Origin: Antedon mediterranea
Lineage: Eukaryota > Echinodermata > Crinoidea > Comatulida > Antedonidae
Assembly: GCF_964355755.1 (NCBI RefSeq)
Contig: NC_092678.1
Coordinates: forward strand, 23,416,365 to 23,480,364
Direction: 5' to 3'
Length of the DNA stretch: 64,000 nucleotides
In this document: in pieces, positions 4,911 to 41,300 of the stretch
Numbering within the stretch: position 1 is the stretch's first letter
Layout of the letters: every line of letters begins with the position of its first letter
The notes under the pieces: model-generated
What the model was told of the DNA's origin: nothing
Databases searched by the model: none
Seen by the model: only the letters and a program-made list of their open reading frames with translations
Made by a program: the position numbers and the translations under genes

Positions 4911-5437
4911 CAAATGGTTTGGAGTTTATCCAAATTCAAATAATAATATACTTGCACAATACAGTGATGTTTTAATGTTTATATTTAGTAGGATTAAAAA
5001 TATATACTTTGTGATAATAAATTTGTTTTCTGTTTTTTATCTTGTTTTTTTTTACAGATGATCACGAACAGTTTGTGTGTACTATGATACAAAGACCTTA
5101 CAGATATCAATCATTTTTTGTGGTCTGTTTTGTTGCGCAATGCTCATCAAACATTTTATCTTAATTATGTAATCAAAATTACCCCATCCCCCAACATCTA
5201 TATAGTATTTATAGTATTGTACAGTAAGAAATGGTCATATAAGCTTTTAAGCTTGTTAACCGACCCATTATTATCAAAGCAAGTAAATTGTACAAACATT
5301 CAAAGTTTAGTGTTTATTACATGGATAACTAGCATGTATCCCCATTCTACAACACTACACATACAAAATAATGTTAAAGTGCAAGAAACACAAATTAAGT
5401 GACTTAACAGTATTATGTAAACAGGTTTTAACAGAAT

Positions 5438-5586
5438 TAAACTCTTTTCCACACTATCAAACATTATGTGAAATGTGATGTGCCAATATATGGACATTAT
5501 GATGTCATATCACTACCATATTTGGGCACATCACTCCCATATTTGGGCATAGCACTCCTAGTTTGATAGTGTAGACAGAGCTTTAT
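5438..5586. mobile_element. MITE family A copy
   Basis: Left end ttaaactcttttccacactatc, internal atggacattatgatgtcat, right end gtttgatagtgtagacagag followed by cttta. Intergenic between NAMPT and PSMA5. Confidence 0.85.
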
Positions 5587-6108: not shown

Positions 6109-9481
<3,373 letters not shown>

Positions 9482-10495: not shown

Positions 10496-13400
10496 CTATT
10501 TCTTCTTCCCTTGCAACTCAATTGAGTGTTCATTTTGTGATATCGGTAAATGGTCGTGGTATTGTCGCAGGTTCGGAGTACTCAATTTCTTCAAACGCTG
10601 GAAAACAAAGTAAAAAGAGTGTACCAATTTATACAATAATGTATCGATCATAAGCCATATTTCTAGTAGATATTTTATAGCGTTGGCTATAGAAATGTAT
10701 CTATCTATTTTAAAATGTCTATGAATAAAATTCTCTCAATTCAAATAAGCACACATCAAAACCCCTATAAGGAATACACATTGAGGACCAAACAAGGTAT
10801 TCACTTAGGCGGGAGTGTAAGAGGAGTAGGTGCAGGCAGGGTGATCTTCCTTAGTGTAGTAGTACAGTTGGCCAGTGTTGAAAAGCTATCCTTCGTTCGT
10901 ATTGTTCGTTTCACCTACAGGTTTAAAATGGCCGTATCCTCAATAGGAATGTCCCGAAGGATTGTGCTTCTATAAGACTGTTTTCGACAGCGTTTTTTCA
11001 GCTAAATAATACATCGTTCACATAAATGTATAGGCCTAGGCCTACTACTGAAATTTAAACTGTACTCTTACCTCTCTGAATGAACCCTGTGTCGTAGCTA
11101 CTGAAAATACGACCCATGCAGGAATACAGATCATGGATGACGTAGCGATTAACAAACCCAGAGCCACACCCCAGGGAGGGTAAACGTAGTCTTCGTAAAC
11201 AAGCGGTGTCCACGTCACCACACTGAAGATCCAGATAGTCTACAAACGGACCATATATCATTTAATGCACACTAATAGGAGGCCTATGTACATTATAAAT
11301 GCCATTAAAGTTATTAAAACGAAGATAATAAGAGTTATGCCTATTTGACTGGTCGACGGATATCTAACTTAGGCTGGTGAGTGGAGATCTGCTAAAGTTG
11401 GACAACCGGCTTCTACTGCTTGTCACACGTGACAATGAAGATGTTTAAAGAAGAGCGGGGAGGGGGCGGGATGGGGAGAGTATGGAGAATTAAATAGAAA
11501 GGGAAAGATGAATGAACTTTGAACATCTATGGTAAACGTACCAGGCTAATAGCTGGTGTTATTATCTTCCAACACCATTTGAAAATGACCAGAGGTCGAT
11601 AACCAATCATCCTCTCCAAGTCATTATACAACCGCTCTCCTCCTAAAAGAAAATAACAATAATAATAACGATAACGACGATAATCATTTTAGGTGTCAAC
11701 TTGAATTATAGTGTCCTATCTTTTGCATTATAAGTGTTTAATTTAGGGAGGTGAAGGGTGGGGGGGGGGGCAGGCCGGGTGACCCCTCTTCCCATTGAAT
11801 CCGCACATGATATAACTTGCCGTTTAAGATTGCAATATTAAACAATTGCTTACATCGGAGTAGAGTATTATGCCGTTTTCAGAATTATACTGTCACGGGA
11901 TTTCCGTTATTGTGACATGGCTTCGTTTAGGCCTATACGCTTCAATAAAATACAATAATACATATAAAGAAATCATTGTTGATAATTCACAATTATACCA
12001 ATAATACCTTATTTAGTTTAGTGTACATGTTCCTTTGGAATTGAATCCGTCATTCGACCAGAACACGTAATTATACATTTCCCGACGTTGTACCAGAGAG
12101 AACATAACAAAACCTGAACCCTGCGACGGTTAGTGTGTAGGCCTACAGGCGAAACTGAACTCCATAATATTGTATTGAACCAGAACGCAGAAGCAGGTAA
12201 AACATATATATAAGAAACATAGGCCCTATCTCAACAAATGAATAGGTTTAGGCCTACTGTTAAAATTGTTATTCTTATTACATAAATTACTAAAGTATAA
12301 CAAAAATCAGGAAAAACATATATATCTCATGAAATGGTCAAATACAGAATTTGGCAAAATTCAGCTAAAAAATGTAAGACTCTTTCCAGTAGTTAGGTAG
12401 TACTGATTTCGTGACTTCATGCCCACCACCAGGAAATGAAACGTTGTTTCAATGAAATAGAATAATTCAAGTTATTAATACGTATATAATACTGTCAACA
12501 ACGTAGGCCTACTTGTTGTCGACAGTATATATTCCTACACAATTTATTTAGCACAAATTAATTAATAAAGTAGGGTCTACCCAGGTTCAATTTCAGTTTT
12601 TGTTGCAAACGGATCTTCTCTTGAAATACTCAAGGTGAAGACTATTAGGCCTACACTAATTTTCCGACGCTTTAACAGATACAAGAAAGGAACTTTGTAT
12701 TGAAAGTAAACCCTGGTAGATGTTACGGTTCAGTGTACAGCATCCATTTTGGAAACTAGTCCTTTGTTATTGAACACAACCCTTTTTGAATAAGTAGCCT
12801 ACCATTATTGTTCACAAACAACAACTGGTAAAGAATAAATCAGTACAGTACAGAAAACATTGGCAGACAGTGTCTTAAAGTTCACCAAGGTTTGCTAAAA
12901 GTTCTTGCCCACTAATAAACGTAGCCTACAACGCGCAGCTGATCGAACTTCAATCAGCAAAATATGAAGAAAATTATAGTTAAACTGGATTTAGACTTAT
13001 ACAATTGATTCCTGGTCCATCTGAGTTCCTGTCGTCGTGGACAGACGAAACATTGGTGGCATCACCCGATCGACATGAAGGGCCCTTATTTATAGGAAGA
13101 TAAAAGTCTACTTTGCTTTGCGACGATTACCACATTTATTATCCTAATATTTTCTTTTTTCCTTTATAGTATTAGTGTTGCTGTCATCTTTGATATTAAA
13201 TACTACACTCATAATACAAGAATAGAAAAAAATGGAAGAAAAGTTCAGTGTCTTGAAACGTGATCTAAGTAGATGCTACGACGGTGACAAGTACATTCGG
13301 TTAAAATGCATCCTATTTGATCAATTACCTACGGGTGCCATTGCAAATCCAGATTTTATCGCACACGATCTATTTAATAAACTCCAAGACAAAGGTCTAA

Positions 13401-16400
13401 TCTCACCTACTAATATTAACTTGCTATTAGAAATTACAGAACTGATTGAAGTGAGGGGTGCTAAAGATCTTGTTATAGAGTACATGGATGACAATCAGGT
13501 GCAGAAAACAGTGGATGAACCAAAGTTGTCATCTTATCGCAAGCGATTGTTTAAAGCTATGGAAAATGTCAGTCAAGGTGAATTGCGAAGTATTATTGCT
13601 TTTTACGAAATACAACAATTTAGCTACAAAAATATTTGGGATGTAGTGCTTCATTTGGAGAATACCTTACATCTCGCAGATGAACGAGATAAAATACGAA
13701 ATTTAGCAGGCTGTCTCAATCAAAGAGGAAAAGACATTCTACTTGGTAATGATGGTATGTATTTTATAATTTCTAAAATCTCTAAACGAAATATTGCAAA
13801 TTAAACGATATGGCCTCCTTGTTCTAAAAATGTAATAATCCCCATAATGCTAAATTAAAAAAATGTAAGTTTCATGTCTTTATTCATTATTGATTTCTAC
13901 CTTGAAGTGTCAAATCAAGGTAATAACAACTCTTAATAAACGTATCCAGTAATCTATCTATTATGAAAAATAAACAAATTTTGAGTGTCGACATTTTGCA
14001 AGTAGTATGGCGAGTAGTTTTATTAGCCAATTTCCTCAATCAATAATTTGTTTTCAATAATATGATCATTCTATACTATTAATTCATGTTTTTTGTAATC
14101 TAAATTACAGGTTCCATAAGGGAAGAATTTAGTATCTTAAAAGAAAAACTAAGTACATACTTTGACGGCATCAATTACCATAAGTTAAGATTCATCTTGT
14201 TTTATCATGTATGTCTGGGTGACCTTACATGTCCACATTTGATCGCACACGATTTATTCAATATACTCGAAGAGCAAGGTATTATCTCACCTACTGATAT
14301 AAACTTATTATTAGAAATTACGAAACTATTCGGAATGAAGGATGCTGAAGATCTTATTAATATGTACATGAATGACAATGATATACTGGACGGACCAGGG
14401 AGTTGCTTCATGTACAGACCAATATCGTCATCTCATCGCAAGCGATTGTTTAAAGCAATTGAACAAGTTAATCCAGGTGAATTGCAACGTATTATTGCTT
14501 TTTACGAATTACAACGATATAACTACACAAATATTTGGGATGTAGTTTTTCGTCTGGAGTGTGATTTACTCGTAGACGACAACTACAAAAGCCTACAACA
14601 ATTTGCAAACTGTCTCAATCAAACCGCAAAAGACATTCTACTTGGTAATGGTATGTATTTTATTCTTTATCTCTTTAACAGAAATATTGCAAATTAAACG
14701 ATACTTTGTTCTAAAAATATAACACCCAAAATGCTAAATAATTTTTTTAATAGTTTCACGTCATTATGCCTATTCACAAATCTAATATATAAACTTTCAC
14801 GTATCCAAGCCATCAATTATTTTTTTAAATAAAAATTCCGATATTGTTGCCAGCATTTTAGCCAATTTTTCTCAATCAATAATATAATTTTGTTTCTATT
14901 GATTTTATACAATTAACATGTGGGACAGAATGAATAGAATAACACAAACAAATTTAGGAATACCAACAGGTTAATTCATCTTGAACATAAAATTAAATAA
15001 AAATGTTAAAAAACAAATGTTTTTGAAACAGATAGAAAAGTAATTTAATTACGATAATCTTTGTATCGTCGATTTAGTATCAATATCATATATTTATATT
15101 TAAACAAATACTACTATCCTAGTACGTTTCGTATTGTTACTGTGTGCAAGGATTTTTGCGCACTTTCAATTTGAGCAAGAAATTGCGTAAAGATTTCCTT
15201 GCGCGTTGAAATCTAATATTCAAATCGCGTATTAACGTAATTACATGCTCATACTTCATATATTTATTACTTTATACTGGAACCAATGAATGAATGATTT
15301 TATATTTCTTTTGCGTTGTGTTTGTTTAATTTGTTGATTTGTATTATATTTTGTAAAATGTATCTTTTGCCTGAATAAATAATAATAATAATAATAATAA
15401 TAGTATTAAATGAATAGAAAAACATAATTATCAATATCACAACCAAAAGGGCGACATTATTAGTATCATATTTCTTTCATTACGATTTATTTTTTACATT
15501 TGTAAAAGAGAACTTGATATGAATTAAGTTATTAAAAACAAAAAAAATTGTTATTAGCCTGAAATAGAAAGTGTTAATCACGGATTTACCTGTATAAGGT
15601 ACATCATGTAAATTAGTTAAATTAAAAAAGGTCATATTATTTATTTAAATAAAAAAAAAAGAAAGTTATTAATTAGTCTAAATTATTTAATTTTTAAGAT
15701 TTCCATGGGGTTTACAATTTAGTTTCTTGAAAATATATTACATTTTTTTTCTCAGCAGATAGGCAATTAGGGGAAGAACCGGAAGAACCGGAAGAACCGG
15801 AAGAACCGGAAGAACCGGAAGTACCGTTGTCACCGTTGGATCAGTTAGGCGCACGGAGAATAGGCCTACAAGGTATGCTACCAATATTCAGTAGGACAGA
15901 ATCCAACTGATAACAAAACAATGATATAAAAAAACATTTCAAAATTTAGTGTTTAAAAATAGTTCCAATAATCCTAGTTTATACAGGCCTATTATCAAAT
16001 CTATATACAAATATATAAATTAGAAAAAAAGGTGGGACACTCTAATTAAAAAAAACATGAATATAGCTTCATCAATGAACTTGTATAGACCTAATATTCC
16101 CACCAACATTAGTAGTTGTAGTAACATTATTAGAAAATCCCACTGTCTCTATCTACAGATGTGGAATGGAACTACTGGGAAAAAATGATCGTTGTTGCAG
16201 CTGGCCTGGTATATTTGTTGAACAATTTGTATTATCTTTTGGTAAATATAGGTGAGTCACTATTGGGAAGAATATGTTGTACCGTCGTATAAACATTGGT
16301 CAGCATCATTTTATTAGTTTGAACACAACTGTGACTGGTATGCTGGGCTTATACTCTCCTAAATGTAATTTACGATCCAATAATAAGTTGCTTTTATTTC

Positions 16401-19400
16401 AACCGAAATCTTATCACTCTTGCTTTTTCTATTAATATTATATTATATTATATTACTACGATACTATGCTCTCGGGAGCAGTGGCCAAGTTCTACTAATA
16501 AATCCTACATTTAAGCGTGACCAACACACGGCACACTTTATAAATGATGCAACAAATATCAAATATAGGCCTAGATTACTAGTACTAGGCCTACACTATA
16601 TTTGCAAATTACGGTATGCTATTGTTAGTAGTTACTGAAATGATATGTGGAATGTGGTTGCTTATTATAAATTTAAATTTATTTTAATTTAGTACCAATA
16701 ATTCGAAGAAACTGGAAATCTTTATGTAGGCCTATACCAATATGTACCGGTAAGTGTTAATAATGAACTAATGATTATTTTCAATGAAATCACTATTAAT
16801 CAAAATTATTTATTACGTGTTCTTCTATTAAACTTAAACCTACCATTTTGGACTCCAACAGCGTTGTTAATTTTGTTTCTTTCTTAATAGTTTTAGCAGT
16901 ACTGGTCGGTGCAATCATCATTATACTTATGCCTAACATGATATCGTCATATCCTCCGTCTCACTATTTTGAAAATGGTTATGGTAGGTCACTATTTTTT
17001 CATTATTTCTTCTGTGAGATTTCTAATGTAATATATTATGTTTAATGTTATACACAGGGGTTTTAATTCTTATAATTTTGACGTAGGCCTAACATTATCA
17101 AAATAATAAAAAGTGGTTCAGAATTGGGATCATGATGTCCAAAATGTAATTATCTACTGTCTGTTGTTAAATGTGGTAAAGACCCGTCTTTAATTTTTCA
17201 CGATAACCTGCTAAAAGACAGACACACATACAAACAAATAACACAGACAGAAATATATAACCACCTTGGTTGAGGTAATTAATACATATACAATTTATTC
17301 TTTTCAGACACAACAGAATATGGTGAAATGATCGAACAAAGGTTTCAAACCATGAATGCTGCTCTCAGTAGATGCTATGAGGGTGAACGATATTATTGGT
17401 TAAGATTTTGTCTAATTGATTATTTAAGTGTTGGTGATACTACAGATGCTATTGGAAATGACTTGTTTAATGCACTTGAATTAAAGGGCTTAATCACACC
17501 TACTGATGTAAACCTGTTGTTAGAGATTACGAAGCTAACAGAAGTGAAGTCTGCCGAAGATCTTATAAGAGGATATATGAAGGACAACAAACTTCAAAAT
17601 TATGATGGCACAATGTTGTCAGATGATCGGAAACGACTGTTTAAAGCCATGAGACAAGTTCATAAAGATGAATTAAAACGTTTGATTTCTAACTACAAAC
17701 TAAAACATCTTAACTTACAAAATATTTGGGATGTCGTTTTTAGACTAGAAATTGAAGAACTAGTCAAGGGTCCAAACAGAATTAAGAACATTCATGAAAA
17801 ACTGATTGGTAATTATTAGGGCATCAAATTATTATTCATTCTCAAAATATTTTAAATTGTATACAACACGAAAAAGCGTTTCACGTAGATTTTAGGTAAT
17901 TCTCTTAAATCATAATTATTAGTGGCGATAATTTGAACTTCAGATGAAAAAAAGGGTGGAATAAAATATTTACATGATATTGGATAAACTATATGAAATT
18001 TCATCTAAATTGTGTGAAAGTGTGAATAGGCCCAAGTATATATCACGCGGACCACATGAACATACATTAAGTTAGGAAATACGTTTTTTTTATTTCTTAT
18101 GATTGACGAACACTTGGTATACTGTAGGCGCGGTTTATAGATCAAACCTTTCGAAACCTTAGTTCTCTGGCTAAATAATAACTGGCTAGAGACTTTCCTA
18201 AGTTTCAATAACTGTATTGACGCAATGGTAAACGAATACATGGAACGAAACCATTTCAAAATCTTGCATATTATACAAATTTGGATTGGTTAAATGTCTC
18301 CATAGGGAGGGCGTACAACTTCTCCACTCTTGACTAATAACTCATAGTCTTTATTTTAATAATTGTTCAAGAGAAAATTTAACTTAAATGATATAAATAA
18401 TAATAATTATCAGTTTAAGAAAGTTATTTGTTTCAATTTGTTTAAATACATTATTTATTACTGAAATACGTTTGGTTATTTATTTGTTTTATGAGCAAAG
18501 TTTTTTTTAAACCAATAGCCAACTTGGTATGAATTACATTCAATGGGCCTGTACATTTGACAGTGTTTTAAATACAAATAAACATGTACTGAAAACAATA
18601 AGGCAATAATCCCATTATTTGTTTTGTTTAAAAGAATCAAATATAAATATATCCGTTTCAGATTAATTTCATAAAGATATAATTGAAACGATCGATTCTG
18701 TACTCCAACAGCAGAAGGAGAACACACAATATCATAATGATAGAAATAGAAACATTTAGCTATTTAACTAAGTATATAATTGTTAATATATATTATGTAT
18801 GCCTATAATTCGTGCTTTTGTTAATATATATTATGTATGCCTATAATTCGTGCTTTTGTTTCGACCTTCCTTGATATCACATTATATTGTTTTTTAATAT
18901 AGGATAGGCCAGACCTATCTGTATATACTTAAAGTAAGTTTCAAAACTCTTTTTTACTTGCATTTTTTTATTCATACGTGTGAACAAACTGTTATATTTA
19001 TTTTTTAAACATTTAGGCCTATTTTCACTAAAATGTTTAAGGTCTACTGGAAAATAACACTTGACAGCTCTTGTAATTTTGTTGTTCTCAGATTTTTTTT
19101 ATTGGTTTTAACTATAAAATAGCCTTACCATTGAATAAGAAACGGGTGTACTACACTTAAGATGGTAATGCTAGTATTGTATTATACAATTCAAACATAG
19201 ACCAATATTTAAATATGAAAATAAAATATTTTTAATGCAAGCATGATTACGATAGTTTGCTGTTATATGGTATTTGTCCACAACAAGCACTTTTATTGAG
19301 AAAGAATGTCATTGAAGAAGCGCAAAAACGATCCGGCGATACCACCACGTCACAAAATCACGTCTTTGGGTCATGTTGGTTAAGACCATCCAGAAATAAG

Positions 19401-22400: not shown

Positions 22401-25400
22401 TTAAGCAGTTTCAGTGCAGCAGACAAAACCATCGTTATCGAGCTATTCTGGACAGTCGCTTCTCTGTTACCGTAACGAGAGTACTATTCGTCCGTAAAGA
22501 TGGACATACGATCAGCTATACGGCCACAGTTCAACAAGAAACGAAAACCTAACTGGTCAGAAAATGAAATTAGTTTTTTACTTCGAGAATTTGAGAAACA
22601 TAAAATAATATTGACATCAAAGCTGTGTGGTGAGACAACGTCTCAGCAAAAACGACAAGTTTGGAAGTTGATTTGCGACGGGTTAAACGCACGAAATCCT
22701 TACGTGAAACGCACTACAGAAGAAGTGCGACGCAAGTGGAAAAACTTGTTATCAGCGTCAAAACGGGAACTTGTCGAATCAAAAAGACCGTACATCGAAG
22801 GCGGTCCCCCTCCCAGGCCGATTTCAAGCATAAGTCGACGTGTTATCAAATTGAGGGGTACGGTACGGCAGCAGTCATATGCACACCCTGGTGACCAGAA
22901 CCACCCGAATGTTAACTACCATGGTCTGCCTACCATGGTTGAGGTCGTGCACCATTCAAATCATATTGATTCAGATGATTTGGATGATTTAGATGATAAT
23001 CTTGATGATATGGACCAAGATGATTTTGATACCGTCGAAGAACATTCGCCAAATGGTAAAATTCTGCGACTTTCACCAAAGAAAGAAAATCATCCGTCCA
23101 GCAACGCGTCGATCACAGAAAATAAATATTCACCAATTTACGAAGAAGAAAATCATAAAGAACACGTAAGCCTACGAATGGATCGACAAAACCAAGAAGT
23201 CACAAACGATTCCAGGCTAAGCGAGTCCGAAGTACTACCGCGTATTCATGGTAACGACACGCATCGGGACGCGCACGCAGGCCTAGTACAGGACGACGGA
23301 GAAAGTCATGAACATAACCAACAATCGAACGGCTTATCATCCCGGTCGTCTTCGCCGTTTTCAGACGTGACGACATCACGTCACATAACAGCAGCCGATA
23401 TGTATCACCCGGTACTACCATCAGACGGATACCCGCGGATTTTCACAACCAATGGCTTTCGTCCGGAGTATGCTATGTATGACAGGACAGACGGTTCGCT
23501 TGCCCGACCGACAACAACAACGTCAGAGAGACTTGACGTCGACGAAAACGGACAAAGCGTCGCGGAAATACAAGCGGACATGGTACGCATACAGCGGGAT
23601 AAACTAAAGCTAGAGAAAGAAGTGCTCGAGTTATATAAAGAAAGAATGACGCTAGAGGTGGAATGGTGGAGAAATCGTTTACAGCGAACAAAAACAACAC
23701 AAACATAATCACTTATGATGCGCTACTAACTCCGTGCTACATAAAGTGTTATGTTTGTCGTAAAGTATTCATTGTTATGCTACAGCATCCGATATTCGCC
23801 ACAGAACAATCGGCGTGGTCTCACGGTGCAACAGGACTTTCTTTGTGCTACAAACTGTTTCCAGCAATTTGTGGTCACGGCCGCCGGACTCATGAGTACT
23901 CATAAACGCTATTTGCTTACATTTTAATTATTTGAATTTTCTAATTCATTAATGTGACAAAAGAATGTGTAGAAGAGAAACATTAATGTATTATCGTACG
24001 CACGCAAATAAAAGCAACTCAATCACGACTGTAGCATAATGTGTAATAGCATGTTGTATATAAATGACATTCGCATGCAAGTTAAATGATGTAAGTTGCC
24101 ATATTCAAAACCAATTTACCTGACTAATGTATACTAATCGCCGCTCTGATAGTATTACGGTGAAAAAGATGTTCTGCGCTTGCGCATTGTCAACGGCCAG
24201 TGACCTTGAATGACATTATAATAATGTTAGTGTCGCATAATGACGTGACAAGGTATTTGACAAGATGATCCTACCTATTATTACTGGAGCTCAATAAGAG
24301 ATGCTCATTTTTTAAATACATTTTCCTTAGCTGCAAAGACCTGGATTGTAGCTTTCACTTAATTAAAAAATGTTGATATTGAAATGCATTTTATATAAAA
24401 CAAATTTATTTTGGTTAGATTTAACTTGGTTTAACGCAAGGATGTAAGTCCACCGTAAAGCGTGGTTCCTTCTGGAGACGCAACGCAAGCGTAACGTAAG
24501 TGATTTGACCAATCACAAGCGATGGATTATCCGTCACCGTGATTGGTCACTCACGTGCGTTGCGCCAACGTCGTTGGGTTGGTCCAAGTGGGAAAAAAGC
24601 TTCAATTCTTCAGCTTCAATTTGTCAACTTTATCAATATTTTTCAAGTGAAAATGCATCTTTATTTTGGGCTCTATACTTCAGTAGGCCTACAATACTAA
24701 ACACTAAATGCTGTATGCAGCTTAAAAAATGTTTTAATAAAATATCTAAAATGTTTTTAAAAGATTTTATTTTAATGCGTTTTCAATCGAATACGTTTAC
24801 GGTTTACTAAATTTTCGGTGTAGAGCTAATTATGCGAGGCAATGATGATGATGAATATGACGACGATGATGATGATGATGATGTCGATAGGTGATAAGCT
24901 AGTATGTTAATGATACGACTATGATTTATCATGTAAACCTATTTAAAATTATTCAAATTCATTCGTAATATTATTCTACAAAATACAAGTCCAAGAAAAT
25001 CCCTAATTCCCTGCAATATGCGCTCGATACACATCCAGGGTTGTCAAGATTGATATTTTTATCTGCTGAAATTCAATTTCGTCGAAGTACGCCTGTGCGA
25101 GGTAAAAATAGACGTGCGGATTTAGAAGCAATCATCAGGGACTCAAGCCCCTTTACGTATATATAGTTTCGAATTTAAGCCAGGATTACTATAATATGAA
25201 ATCCCGTGTAAAGTATCACTAGAACTGCTGCTATGACGACGTGTAAATGAGGAAATCTATACAGTAAGCCTTTTACGTCGAGGACATTAAAAATAACTTG
25301 GGTATCTACGATTAGTGATATCAATTATCAATGAAATACGTAACTGTTGTCTTAAGCTCCGTCCACACTATCACACTAGTGATGTGCCCAAATATGGTAG

Positions 25401-28400
25401 TGATATGAAATCATCGTGTCAATATATGGGCACATCACATTTTTTGTCACATAGTTTGATAGTGTAGACAGAGCTTTAGTAGATATCTTAACGTCACCCC
25501 TGGATGATCATGATGCCTCGTTAATAGGATGTTTATAAATATTATATCATGTCTTCTATTTGACCTTTTTCTTCGATACATATTTTAATAATTATCGAAT
25601 ATTTCCGTTTGAACGTTTAAGAGAGAAGAGGGCAGCGTTAAATATAGAATCTATGTTATTCCTTATGACCATTTAGGCCTATACACACAACGCGGAGCAG
25701 ACGAGCGGTTTCTGCTCAGGATAGATACAGATTCTATGTGGGACAAGCTACGCGGTTTTCCGCTTACCGTTACCGCTCGTCTGTGTATATTGGCCTTTAC
25801 TAGATAAAAATACAGTAACATCATATTAATAGTATATTTATAAAATACTCTGCAAAATATAGATAGATTGCTTGTTTTATCATCAAACTATACGCTTATA
25901 TCTATATCATTTCTTATAGCACGGCTGTTGTGATTCTATTGTTTCCGGTGTACTTATTACTAAATTATAAATCACTGGCATGGCTTGACTAAAATAATAA
26001 AATATAAATACTTACCATAAACCCATCCAATGGCGACGCATTCAAAGAAAGCCATACATAAAAGAACCATCCCGCTAGCCGAAAAATAGTCGTAGATTTG
26101 AAACACATACATACCGCCCTATCGAAAAATGCAAACAAAAAAAGTCTAATACCCGAACATACGAAGAGACAACGCGCGTACAACATATGTGAACGCGCGC
26201 GCTATACATTTAATATAAGTGTGGTTCCCACTAGATGCAACACAAGGACGTCCGTAGTAAATCCATCGCCCGTGATTGGTTAAATCACTTACGTTGCGCG
26301 TACATCCTTGCGTTAAGAGTTTCTTGTGAACTATATTTAATCATAATATTGTTTTAGTCATAATATTGATAACCATAACAACGTCTACAGTACAGAGATT
26401 TTTACAAAAAAAAAAAATTAATTGTAAAATATATACAGGGTTGCATCTCTAGTGGGAACCAATCATTAATCGGCAGCGATTTTACTAATAATACATTATC
26501 GAAAACTCACCCGTGTAACCATGAACAAACCACAAAGGAATGAGATTGTACAAATGAAGAGAACAAACAGCTCACGATTGTAACCACGATTCAGAAAGCG
26601 CGGGAAAAAGTCACTTATAGCAGTCACGAAACCTTCAACAGTTACAAACTAAAAAGACAAGACAATAATAGTTTATAGACACAGGGGAAAATAACATTTT
26701 CTTTTCAAGTCACACTAACCTACTCGTTTCATACTAAAAGCAGCTTCCGTGCGTTCGCGGTTGTCAACCATGGAGTACCAGTAATAATAGTAATATAATA
26801 CTCAATGGTAAAATAAAGCGATGATTATTATACTAGAAATAAAACAGTAAAAACGTGAGTAGGCCTAGATAAAATGAATCTGGTACCTGACTGTCCATTC
26901 CGACCAATAGAATCATGAAGAAGAACAGACATGACCAAAGTGGTGACAATGGCATCATGGACACCGCTTTAGGGTATGCGATGAATATCAGTCCAGGCCC
27001 TGTTGACAAATATACACATTTATTATTAACAAACCACCAGAGCGTCAACATCGGGGTTTTGTATGGTGTGTAAACTCCGGAGTTTTAACAAACCACCGGA
27101 GCGTCAACATCGGTGTTTTATATGGTGTGTAAACTCCGGAGTTTTAACAAACCACCAGAGCGTCAACATCGGTGTTTTGTATGGTGTGTAAACTCCGGAG
27201 TTTTAACAAACCACTGGAGCGTCAGCATCGGTGTTTTATATGATGTGTAAACTCCGGAGTTTTAACAAACCACAACATCGGTGTTTTGTATGGTGGGTAA
27301 ACTCCGGAGTTTTAACAAACCACCGGAGCGTCAACATGTTTTTATGATGTGTAAACTCCGGATTTTTTTAGGCGGTGTAAAGGGGGTATTAATAATATTA
27401 TTAAACAAAGAAAGTACCTTTTGTGGCAACATCTTCAATAGGGACACCCTGTTCAACCGACATGTATCCAAGCACGGAGAAAATCAACAATCCGCCATAG
27501 AAACTTGTAAAGCTATTCACACAGGCTACGATCAACGTATCCCTGAAAAAAATTTAGTGAAATATGTCATTACGTACGTCATGGTCCGTTTAGTGGGACG
27601 TGAAGTCGTAGGATCTGCGTACGTAACAATGGACATAACGGTAATTCGACACAACACAATTATAAAATACAAAGTAGTACGAGCCACACACAAAATTACT
27701 AATCTTAATATTACCTAAGATAATTATGGTAAATGTTAAAATTTCAAACTATCCAGATGCGACTTCAAAGTTTTAGGCGGTTTTTTCTTCTTTTTTTTTT
27801 AAAAAAAAGCTTCATAGGCTAGCCCTGCGGCGGGTTAGAATTGTCTTACATTATAACGTGGGTGTTCCTGCACAATCTCATTTGCATAACAACGGACGAC
27901 ATACCAAGCCGTGTCGTACAACTACGATGAGATATTAATTCTCTTCTAAACACGTAACGAAGAGAATTATCAATTCCTTTTTTCTGACATTAAAATTGAG
28001 GGCGCTAAACATAAAATTTATGAGATCGAATACCGGTGGCGAAAACCACAGGAAAAATAAAAGATGTTAAATGTGCTCTCCCTGCCTCAGCACTAAGGCC
28101 CTGCCACAGCCTTTTGGGGTCGTTTCCAGCACATCACCAGATGCATTGATGTTACCGCCTCATGATGTGTGGTGGAAAGGGGGACGTATAATTCTGTGAA
28201 CCTCAAACACAGTTGGTCGCATACCTTTAACTCTATTCCACCAGACCAGCGTGGGACTCGAACCCACGACACTCGTGTTGGTAACACGACGTTCAGTCGA
28301 CTGAGCTAACCGGTCATTTTGTTTGTAAACAGGTTAATACAAGCTTCGTTCCGTCAAGGTGACGGTCATGAATATGCATAATATGAAGCACGTATAAATA

Positions 28401-32180: not shown

Positions 32181-33118
32181 CCTCGGCAGTCAGGCCCAGC
32201 TAGCCCAATTTGGGAATCGGAATTGTTCACAAATATGCTTACTAAATACAACTTAAATTAGTAAAAGTTCGTAGAAAGTTCTGTTGCAATACCTTCATGC
32301 AACTGGTATTATTTTATTCAACTGAGAAACAGTTAAATTTAAGTGAAAAAACGACGTGTCTTGTGCATCGCATGCTGTCTGCTGCCGGCCCATGCCTGGC
32401 GCGCTGCTGCCAAAAAAGTTTTGTGAGTACCCAGCCGTTGATGGCGCAAATATGAATTAGGGAAAGGTCTAATAAAAAAAAGTCTCTGGTTCAATCCCGA
32501 GTTTAGGTATCTTTTACAGATATCGTTTCTAGTGCATTTGTTTTGGTTTCAGTATAAGATTGTTTTCTATGTATAAATGGTTTACTTGGAAGCGTCAAAC
32601 TGAACCTGGTTCATTCCCGGGTTTCAGAACATATATTTTTTTAGTGCACTATTTAATATCTAATACAATAAATCTATCGTAACTTAGTGCATTTATTTTT
32701 GTTTCAGGACATAATATTAAATATTTTTTTCAATGTAGACTGCATTTGTCTAACTCGTAAAATAATAACATATTCTATAATATCCAAGGCATTTTTCCCA
32801 GTAGGTCTTAATTGAGTTTATAGAAAGTTCGTCAAATATACGTGGATACCAACATTTTACTCACCTGTATACTACTGTACGATTTCTGTAGCCTTCTACC
32901 ATTTCAGTAAATAATGAGGGGATATTTGAATAGCCTACCTAAAGTCAACCTTTTGTTTATTTACCTGCATCATCAAGGACAAATTTAAATACGTTATCAG
33001 TAGTAGCGCCCATGTGTCCAGCAGCAAGAGGCACCGAGTTCTTTTACTATTGGTTGATTCACGTATCTTCAGATATAATTAGTTGACTTAGCAATCGAGG
33101 AAATTGCATAAAGGTCGA

Positions 33119-38378: not shown

Positions 38379-41300
38379 TTAAAAGCCTTTAACAGCTTTA
38401 ACAATACAGGATGCACTGATCCCGAAGCGCTCAAGCAGAACCGTTGGTGGACCACTGTAGGGAATGTTCTGAACAGCCAATCGTCGTACTTTTACTCCTT
38501 CCTCAGACAGCGCAGCAGACACAGCCTCACCAAGTCCACCTATAAAACAAAAATCAGTTTAATACCATATTTTACATAATTATTGAATCACTGTTATGTT
38601 ATATTTTTTTTAATTATTTCATAAGCATCCAACAGCGAGCACAAAATCGTCAATTATTTAACATTTAATAATGTATCATGAGTGGAGTTACAAGTCACTA
38701 GTTACAACCCTGGCACAAGGTCAGAATTGAACCCTGGACCTTGGGATTGGAAGGCAATCATGTTAACCCTCATGTTCATGTTCTCACCTTCAGGGTAATG
38801 GTCTTCAACAGTGAGCACTTTGTTTCCACTGGCTTTGGCACAAGTGAGAAGTGTAGCCTTATCAATTGGTTTCACAGTGAAAGGATCAACCACACACACG
38901 TTGATACCCTCTGCAGCTAGAGTTACCGCAGCCTTCTCGGCTTCTGGAAGTGTTACTCCTGCAGCTACGATGGTCACCTGATCTTTATCACTTTGACGAC
39001 GAACCTACAGAAAAAAACAGATTATTACAAGAATTACTTGTTGACTTCATAAATAACAAAGCTCCCTTTTAACTAGTGAGTAGACCACATAGACATCTTG
39101 AATACTAGTGGGAACCAAGCTTTAACTACCAAATTTCAAATGTAGGATAGTAACTGGTACCAAGTATCAGTGAGTTGTATGAAACTTGATAAGAAGTTCT
39201 ATACAGTTGCTATGGCAACACAAGGGAAGTCTTTGATCTCGATAGTAACGCAAGTCAAAGAGGCAAAGTGTTGCGGAGTAAAAACAAACAAAATCTAACA
39301 AAAATGTTTAACAATTGGCATATTTAACTGGGCTGTTTTGAGCAGATAACCAGCTGATGTAGCATCTCAATTTTGCATGTATTGCAAAATATAAAGAGAG
39401 CATTGAAAGCCAGGAATATTATACCTTAGCCTTTCCAATCTTGAACTCCTCAGTGTTTCCATAAACCACTGGAGTGGTCGGCCTAGACGCACGAATAAAG
39501 CACATCCCTGGAGTGTTAGCTGCAAGTTCTACTGCTCTCTCCATGGCAACCGCATCACTTGGGTAGAATACTGTGCAGCCTGGAATTGCTCTGAACATGG
39601 ATAGATCTTCCAGTGCCATTTGAGATGGACCATCTTCACCTGATAAATAAAATACAGATGAATATCATTAAAGAACAAATAAAATTGTAGGCCTCAATTT
39701 TGTTATATCTGTAGAATTGGCTATCCACATGTGCAGATCACAGCATGTGACAATGTGCAGATCACAGCATGGGACAATGTGCTGTTAGCATACCCCGTAA
39801 CAGTCCTAGATTTTTTTTCATTATTCTGGAGAAACATTTATAGTATAACAAATCTAATTCACTCTTTTCAAAGCAATAATATTTATTTTATCTATTCCTC
39901 GCCAAATAAGGGCGTGTCTCTCCAATAAAATGTCTTACCAATGGAAATGCCGACATGGGATCCCATGAAGTTGACGTTGGACTGCGAGACAGCACCCATT
40001 CTAATCTGATCGTAAGCACGCGACAAGAAACATGCAAAAGTACTAGCAAATGCGACTGTTCGGTTGCGACATGCAGCTCCCATTGCAACTCCAACAAGAT
40101 TTTGTTCGGCGATGAAACACTCGATGAATCGGTCGGGGAATGCATCCCTGAATTTTATCGAGTAGGTGGAATTTTTCATGTCTCCATCAATGGCAACAAC
40201 ATGTTTGTTATCCTTGCCGATCTTTACAAGAGCTGTTCCGTAGGCAACACGAGTTGCAACCTATAAAACAATTGAGTAAATTACAAATCTGAACAGTCGT
40301 ACATGTTAACTTAAAATTAACAATCAAATCTCAAATGTAGGATAGCAATTGATACCAAATTTCGGCGAGTTGTGCGAAAATTGACTAGAAGTTGCATCCA
40401 GTTGCTATGGCAACACAAGGGAAGTCTTTGATCTTGATTGACAGGACAAGTCAAAGAGGCAAAGTGTTGCGGGAAAAAAAATAAATCAAACACAAAAATG
40501 TTTTTTTCTTTCAAAACCGGACACCTTGTGTCAAATGTATTTTAAAAAGAAGGTGCCTTGTAGTAGTTAGAAATAATATAAATAATAAATGGAGAAATTT
40601 TTACCATATCTCCCAATGAATAGCTTGGAGCCTCAAACAACTTGACTTCAGAGATATTAACTGCTGGAGCATCATCAACAGGTACTGGAGGAGTCAAGCT
40701 GTGTTTGTTGTTTTTGATCAATTTTGAGATGGCATCAATAGCACCCTCAGCTTTAGCACCAAGAGCTTTACCGTGCCAATTTTCAAGGTTTTCTACATCT
40801 GTGAAACGTAAAAGAAATGCTCATTTACTTTCTTGAAAAATCCAAATCATTGTAAAAAATTATTCAAATCATTTTAAAAAAAATGATTTACATCGAAAAA
40901 GAAAATTGTTTCTATACCTGGACAACCTTTTCCTTTGAAGGTCTTTGCCAGAATAGCTGTTGGTTTACCAGTAGTGACCGAAGCCTCATGGAATACCTTA
41001 CAAAGATCTTCAACATTGTGTCCATCAACCACAATGGCATTCCAACTATAAATAAAAATAACAATTTTAACCACTATAATGTCATTGATTATGACAACTA
41101 TGATGTCATCATTATTGATGATAAAAACTATGTTGTCATTATTGATGACAACAACTATTATGTCATCATCATTGATGACAACTATTATGTCATATCTTTG
41201 ATGACAACTATGATGTCATCAACTATGATGATTTTACTTATATGTTTATGATTACAATGTAGGATAGCAATTGATATCAAATTTCGGTGAGTTGTGCGAA

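Follow-up and report, generated by a model that had tools for sequence, protein, structure and literature searches.

The locus at 13232-17819 raises the question of whether one gene can bring several DEDs of the caspase-8 type together with membrane segments in a single protein and, if so, where that protein came from and what it would do. It lies on the forward strand of the window, a stretch of 64,000 nucleotides from the crinoid Antedon mediterranea (contig NC_092678.1, positions 23,416,365 to 23,480,364). Splicing the window DNA across seven exons gives a single open frame of 643 residues that ends in TAG; the six introns are all GT-AG and all in phase 1, and every internal exon is symmetric (1-1). 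Exon 1 (13232-13754), with its phase-1 donor GTATGT, holds the ATG start and a first tandem DED module (tDED), made up of DED1 and DED2, and exon 2 (14111-14650), a duplicate of exon 1, holds the second. The acidic linker of exon 3 (15759-15872), which has good splice scores, carries the EEP repeat that the initial annotation had reported, and at the DNA level it is a 9-bp tandem repeat, GGAAGAACC, in 6.1 copies with 97% match (15772-15826). A marginal hydrophobic segment is found in exon 4 (16159-16251; splice scores 4.2 for the acceptor and 6.6 for the donor), a short basic segment in exon 5 (16693-16749) and a strong TM segment in exon 6 (16891-16983), and exon 7 (17308-17819) adds the third, terminal tDED and the stop codon.

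That exons 1, 2 and 7 encode homologous modules of about 170 residues was confirmed (46-52% identity at the protein level). Each had been described as a DED-like fold with a second helical part; the death fold holds, and the second part is actually DED2, since the alignment with caspase-8 spans both. Residues 10-151 of exon 1 match the tDED of caspase-8 (5h31, 8-155) in a phmmer search (E=1.4e-6), positions 14-167 of a profile built from the three modules match caspase-8 tDED chains (11-168) with E=0.0012, and a profile of 30 family members reaches the same chains with E=0.0037. A DED match at E≤0.01 was found in 28 of these 30 members. Against the Pfam DED model PF01335 the whole 643-residue protein scores 41.7 bits in three stretches (cut-off 35.9, E=1.4e-10), and the single modules, with 17-23 bits, are under the cut-off. 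The fold check on exon 1 gave a model (AlphaFold, pLDDT 55) that is confident in DED2 only and poor in DED1; Foldseek ranks the caspase-8/cFLIP DED assembly first for it (E=0.009, TM 0.45). The model of exon 7 was poor and gave no usable structural match. On these grounds each of the three exons is read as a complete caspase-8-type tDED, and the predicted protein as an assembly of six DEDs. Modules outside the death fold were ruled out by the caspase-8 sequence matches and the Foldseek ranking. A weak match to a chain of the thiol-activated cytolysin family, covering part of DED2 only, was set aside, and the weak Pfam matches to HEPN, Cpf1 PI-like and C23 peptidase models were all under their cut-offs. 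The Pfam search of the spliced protein found no Peptidase_C14 (caspase) domain, no NACHT and no TRADD-N.

The E/D-RxDL motif is a conserved feature of DEDs and not a strict requirement, so that membership of the DED family rests here on the profile and caspase-8 matches. In nearly all of the 30 family members the arginine of this charged triad motif, described in PMC4558505, is replaced by alanine in DED1, with the DL part kept; exon 7 is also without part of the last DED2 helix. Because of both changes, the contacts made in a filament may differ from those of other DEDs. Exons 1 and 2 are 52% identical in amino acids, with dS of about 0.36 and a dN/dS of 0.90, a value that indicates weak constraint or diversification.

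To see whether the exons between the second and third modules could be a product of chance, they were compared with a background of 128 kb, both strands of the remaining window, scanned for phase-1/1 open exons with generic splice-site weights. Exons 3, 4 and 6 were recovered in the 2.7 kb separating exons 2 and 7, exon 5 being missed by the splice filter because of its weak acceptor, and the background rate of such candidates is 0.055 per kb. Only one other distinct spot in the 128 kb reaches a KD19 of 1.6 or more, and it is a real exon, from a sodium:neurotransmitter symporter (SLC6) gene at 32677-32808 on the reverse strand. Against this background of splicing, phase and hydropathy, an artefact of chance or composition was ruled out for the two hydrophobic phase-1/1 exons that lie within 1.4 kb here.

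The genome in which this gene resides (354 Mb in 18 contigs) contains at least 150 tDED-family exons, a lower bound as 150 candidates were scored, and some of these contain stops. For at least 42 of them a NACHT exon follows downstream on the same strand within 15 kb, against a chance expectation of 0.33. The genome also has, at C2:9.12 Mb and C2:8.90 Mb, caspase exons preceded by two DED exons, and so contains a DED-caspase pathway that could be regulated. It carries let-7, which marks it as bilaterian; a search for bantam found nothing and was uninformative. The family thus reads, from its sequences, as a large expansion of DED-NLRs in a bilaterian genome with DED-caspases of its own. Amphioxus has DED-NACHT genes (PMC2575513), and DEDs are put to similar use in the 42 exons upstream of NACHT here; the window gene differs from such invertebrate NLRs in that it is without NACHT and LRR, has a tDED in their place and has a TM exon added. 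The closest relatives of exon 1 are the tDEDs of three loci, L038, L039 and L040, to which it is 58-66% identical. In L038 (C9:22618000-22627999, reverse strand) and L040 (C9:22851000-22860999, reverse strand) the tDED exon is followed by a basic linker exon, a phase-1 TM exon (5329-5466 and 6737-6874, respectively, in the oriented loci) and a large NACHT exon, which scores 64 bits and ends in more hydrophobic segments; L039, with its TM exon at 6735-6803, has a similar layout and a weaker acceptor. The order tDED-TM-NACHT of L038 and L040 is an unusual, membrane-bound layout for an NLR. A TM exon is present in the window gene and in five of the seven loci that were read in the C9 cluster (L031, L032, L038, L039 and L040), and was not seen in L041 and L042 of the same cluster. 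No hydrophobic phase-1 exon was detected, with relaxed thresholds either, in any of 15 tDED-NACHT intervals on C3, C4, C5, C7, C8 and C9, and the TM exon would therefore mark one local branch of the family. The window gene is best read as a member of this TM branch that has a tDED where the others have NACHT-LRR. Its TM exon aligns only loosely with those of L038, L039 and L040, and a common origin with the TM exons of its tDED-NACHT neighbours is likely.

Whether the seven exons form one functional gene can be judged from the two closest paralogs, L031 (C9:22.71 Mb) and L032 (C9:22.81 Mb), which lie in an NLR cluster at 22.62-22.95 Mb, 0.6-0.7 Mb from the window gene. In both, the terminal tDED exon shares 77% identity with exon 7 and has its stop at the equivalent position. 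Reading by hand around exon 7, we found that exons 5, 6 and 7 keep their frame, splice phase and splice sites and that exon 6 is hydrophobic; all indels that separate their exons 5 and 6 from those of the window gene are multiples of three. This conservation is the strongest evidence at hand, and it makes it well supported that exons 5-7 are genuine coding exons of one gene that starts with a tDED. The single transcription unit proposed by the initial annotation is thus well supported for exons 5-7 and plausible for exons 1-7 with their membrane segment. It is improbable that two adjacent genes are present, a soluble protein with two tDEDs encoded by exons 1-2 and a small membrane protein with one tDED encoded by exons 4-7. 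An in-frame methionine, Met402, does begin the hydrophobic segment of exon 4, and the frame that continues past exon 2 without splicing meets a stop within 16 codons, as such a pair of genes would have it. However, exons 5-7 of L031 and L032 are preceded, about 1.7-2.3 kb upstream, by one tDED exon, with small basic phase-1 exons as linkers between them, and in the window gene every junction is compatible in phase, including those between exons 2 and 3 and between exons 3 and 4. Nor does it seem probable that the gene is a recent duplicate in decay, with an intact frame and little or no function, as could arise in an NLR cluster with fast birth and death. The dN/dS of exons 1 and 2, the stops in some family exons and the related locus L041, which is without a TM exon at the expected place, are consistent with decay, but none of the seven exons or of their splice sites is damaged, and the dN/dS of exon 7 among the three paralogs (0.54-0.62) is below 1.

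The manner in which the protein would sit in a membrane is less simple than first proposed. With commonly known residue scales, exon 6 and its edge have a KD19 of 2.96 (2.5-2.96) and a summed Hessa value of -2.7, and exon 6 is by prediction a strong TM segment, hydrophobic enough to span; exon 4, with a KD19 of 1.92, a Hessa value of +2.0 and two asparagines inside, would be a marginal membrane span. Thus, of the two hydrophobic segments with a basic loop between them that had been annotated, exon 6 and the loop (charge +4, with a C-terminal flank of -2) stand and exon 4 is doubtful. Genome search and reading of the loci revealed no counterpart of exons 3 and 4 at L031, L032 or any other copy, and a whole-genome search with the TM part matched only itself. 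DEDs ordinarily act in the cytosol. If both segments span, the positive-inside rule would place all tDEDs outside it; if exon 6 is the sole span, as in L031 and L032, modules 1 and 2 would be cytosolic and module 3 would not. Either topology leaves at least one module in conflict with the ordinary role of a DED, and we know of no partner for a DED outside the cytosol, where it could not meet a caspase. A simple two-pass protein with cytosolic DEDs was therefore not borne out: the fourth exon is borderline and lacks conservation, and the distribution of charge speaks against this topology. A protein in which exon 6 alone spans, exon 4 being peripheral or skipped, with the first two tDEDs and the basic segment in the cytosol and the third in the lumen or outside the cell, is possible but less likely than not; the marginal nature of exon 4 and the single TM exon of L031 and L032, basic on its N-side and acidic on its C-side, speak for it, but it leaves a non-cytosolic DED and a fourth exon whose splice sites are good and for which the 128 kb of background offered no match by chance. 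The hydrophobic exons could tentatively be regarded, from their arrangement, as optional cassettes that yield soluble and membrane splice forms, a reading suggested by the 1-1 symmetry of all internal exons and by the presence of a TM exon in some paralogs and its absence from others, and compatible with the explanation that we prefer. That there is a subfamily of DED proteins (tDED-TM-tDED and tDED-TM-NACHT-LRR) whose TM exon lies between two death-fold or NLR assemblies, with signalling DEDs on both sides of the membrane or a hairpin platform of six DEDs, is rather unlikely; such a membrane-integrated NLR/DED system was not encountered in the literature searched.

Our preferred explanation is that the window gene would be a single gene, with exons 1-7 joined in one transcript, for a membrane-anchored protein with three tandem DEDs of the caspase-8/FLIP type and no enzyme. 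It could have arisen by phase-1 exon shuffling within local immune-sensor genes of the tDED-TM-NACHT(-LRR) type, with exon 1 as the retained N-terminal tDED of the family, duplicated into exon 2, with the TM exon retained as well, and with the terminal tDED of exon 7 standing where its relatives have NACHT-LRR. Exon 6 would be the membrane anchor, and exon 4 may cross the membrane a second time or give rise to an alternative form. This structural and evolutionary part, a three-tDED, membrane-anchored and NACHT-less offshoot of the local DED-NLR family, is quite probable from the sequences compared. The role is harder to judge. Because the protein has DEDs only, is without an enzyme and derives from DED-NLRs, in a genome that has DED-caspases, it most likely binds the DEDs of its partners. 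Made of DEDs without a sensor or enzyme and tethered to a membrane, it could be a partner of DED-NLRs and tDED-caspases that retains, seeds or caps their filaments there, in the manner in which FLIP or the POP and COP proteins tune theirs. By analogy with such proteins, a regulatory role as membrane DED scaffold or decoy is nearly an even call, and the origin and the role taken jointly fall somewhat short of that.

Comparison with known systems suggests what may be new in this arrangement. The likeness to caspase-8/10 and to cellular and viral FLIP lies in the modules, each a two-DED unit aligned across the whole caspase-8 tDED, but the window protein has three such units, no caspase domain, a TM segment and alanine for arginine in the RxDL of DED1. 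The statement that known DED proteins are soluble has to be given up. BAP31 (BCAP31) resides in the ER membrane and carries a variant DED; it is reported together with procaspase-8L at the ER (PMC12328794), and oysters have a lineage-specific expansion of immune ectodomain-TM-DED-TRADD-N proteins (PMC8195603). BAP31, compared here by its description, shares with the window protein a membrane location and a DED-type domain, but has one variant DED in place of three tandem ones. The oyster proteins share a DED and a TM helix within a lineage-specific immune expansion, but are receptor-like, with a cysteine-rich ectodomain and the TRADD-N that the window protein does not match. Pyrin-only and CARD-only proteins, adaptor-domain-only offshoots that regulate NLR complexes (PMC3775265), are proposed as a functional analogy, with the difference that the window protein has DEDs rather than PYD or CARD, plus a membrane segment. 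The novelty claimed for the architecture thus holds in part: the general combination of a DED and a membrane segment has precedents, and the arrangement of three tandem DEDs with TM (six DEDs), like the tDED-TM-NACHT branch, was not found in the open-access literature searched. If our reading is correct, a DED-NLR family can give rise, through phase-1 exon shuffling, to membrane-bound DED arrays that have lost the sensor, and modules of the FLIP/caspase-8 type are linked in one locus to a sensor of the NLR type. With the window gene, the templating of DED filaments at a membrane could be put to the test, and the TM-carrying loci next to it on C9, against none of 15 elsewhere, may be the more general point.

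Other multi-module arrangements occur in the genome. Several genes at C4:30.74-30.85 Mb have, after a strong tDED exon, a second, strongly diverged tDED-like exon that scores about 28-30 bits with the family model (L033, 4664-5131; L034, 7152-7643; L043, 6067-6540; L044, 5560-6018; L045, 5711-6175), and four tandem tDED exons about 1.3 kb apart at C1:2295494-2299897 (reverse strand, G000) could belong to another multi-tDED gene. Elsewhere in the window, an open frame of 410 residues on the forward strand (22476-23705) contains a Myb/SANT-like DNA-binding domain (PF13873, 62 bits) and is possibly derived from a transposon, and the reverse strand carries a tRNA gene detected with Rfam (28243-28315) and a transketolase pyrimidine-binding exon (39895-40260).
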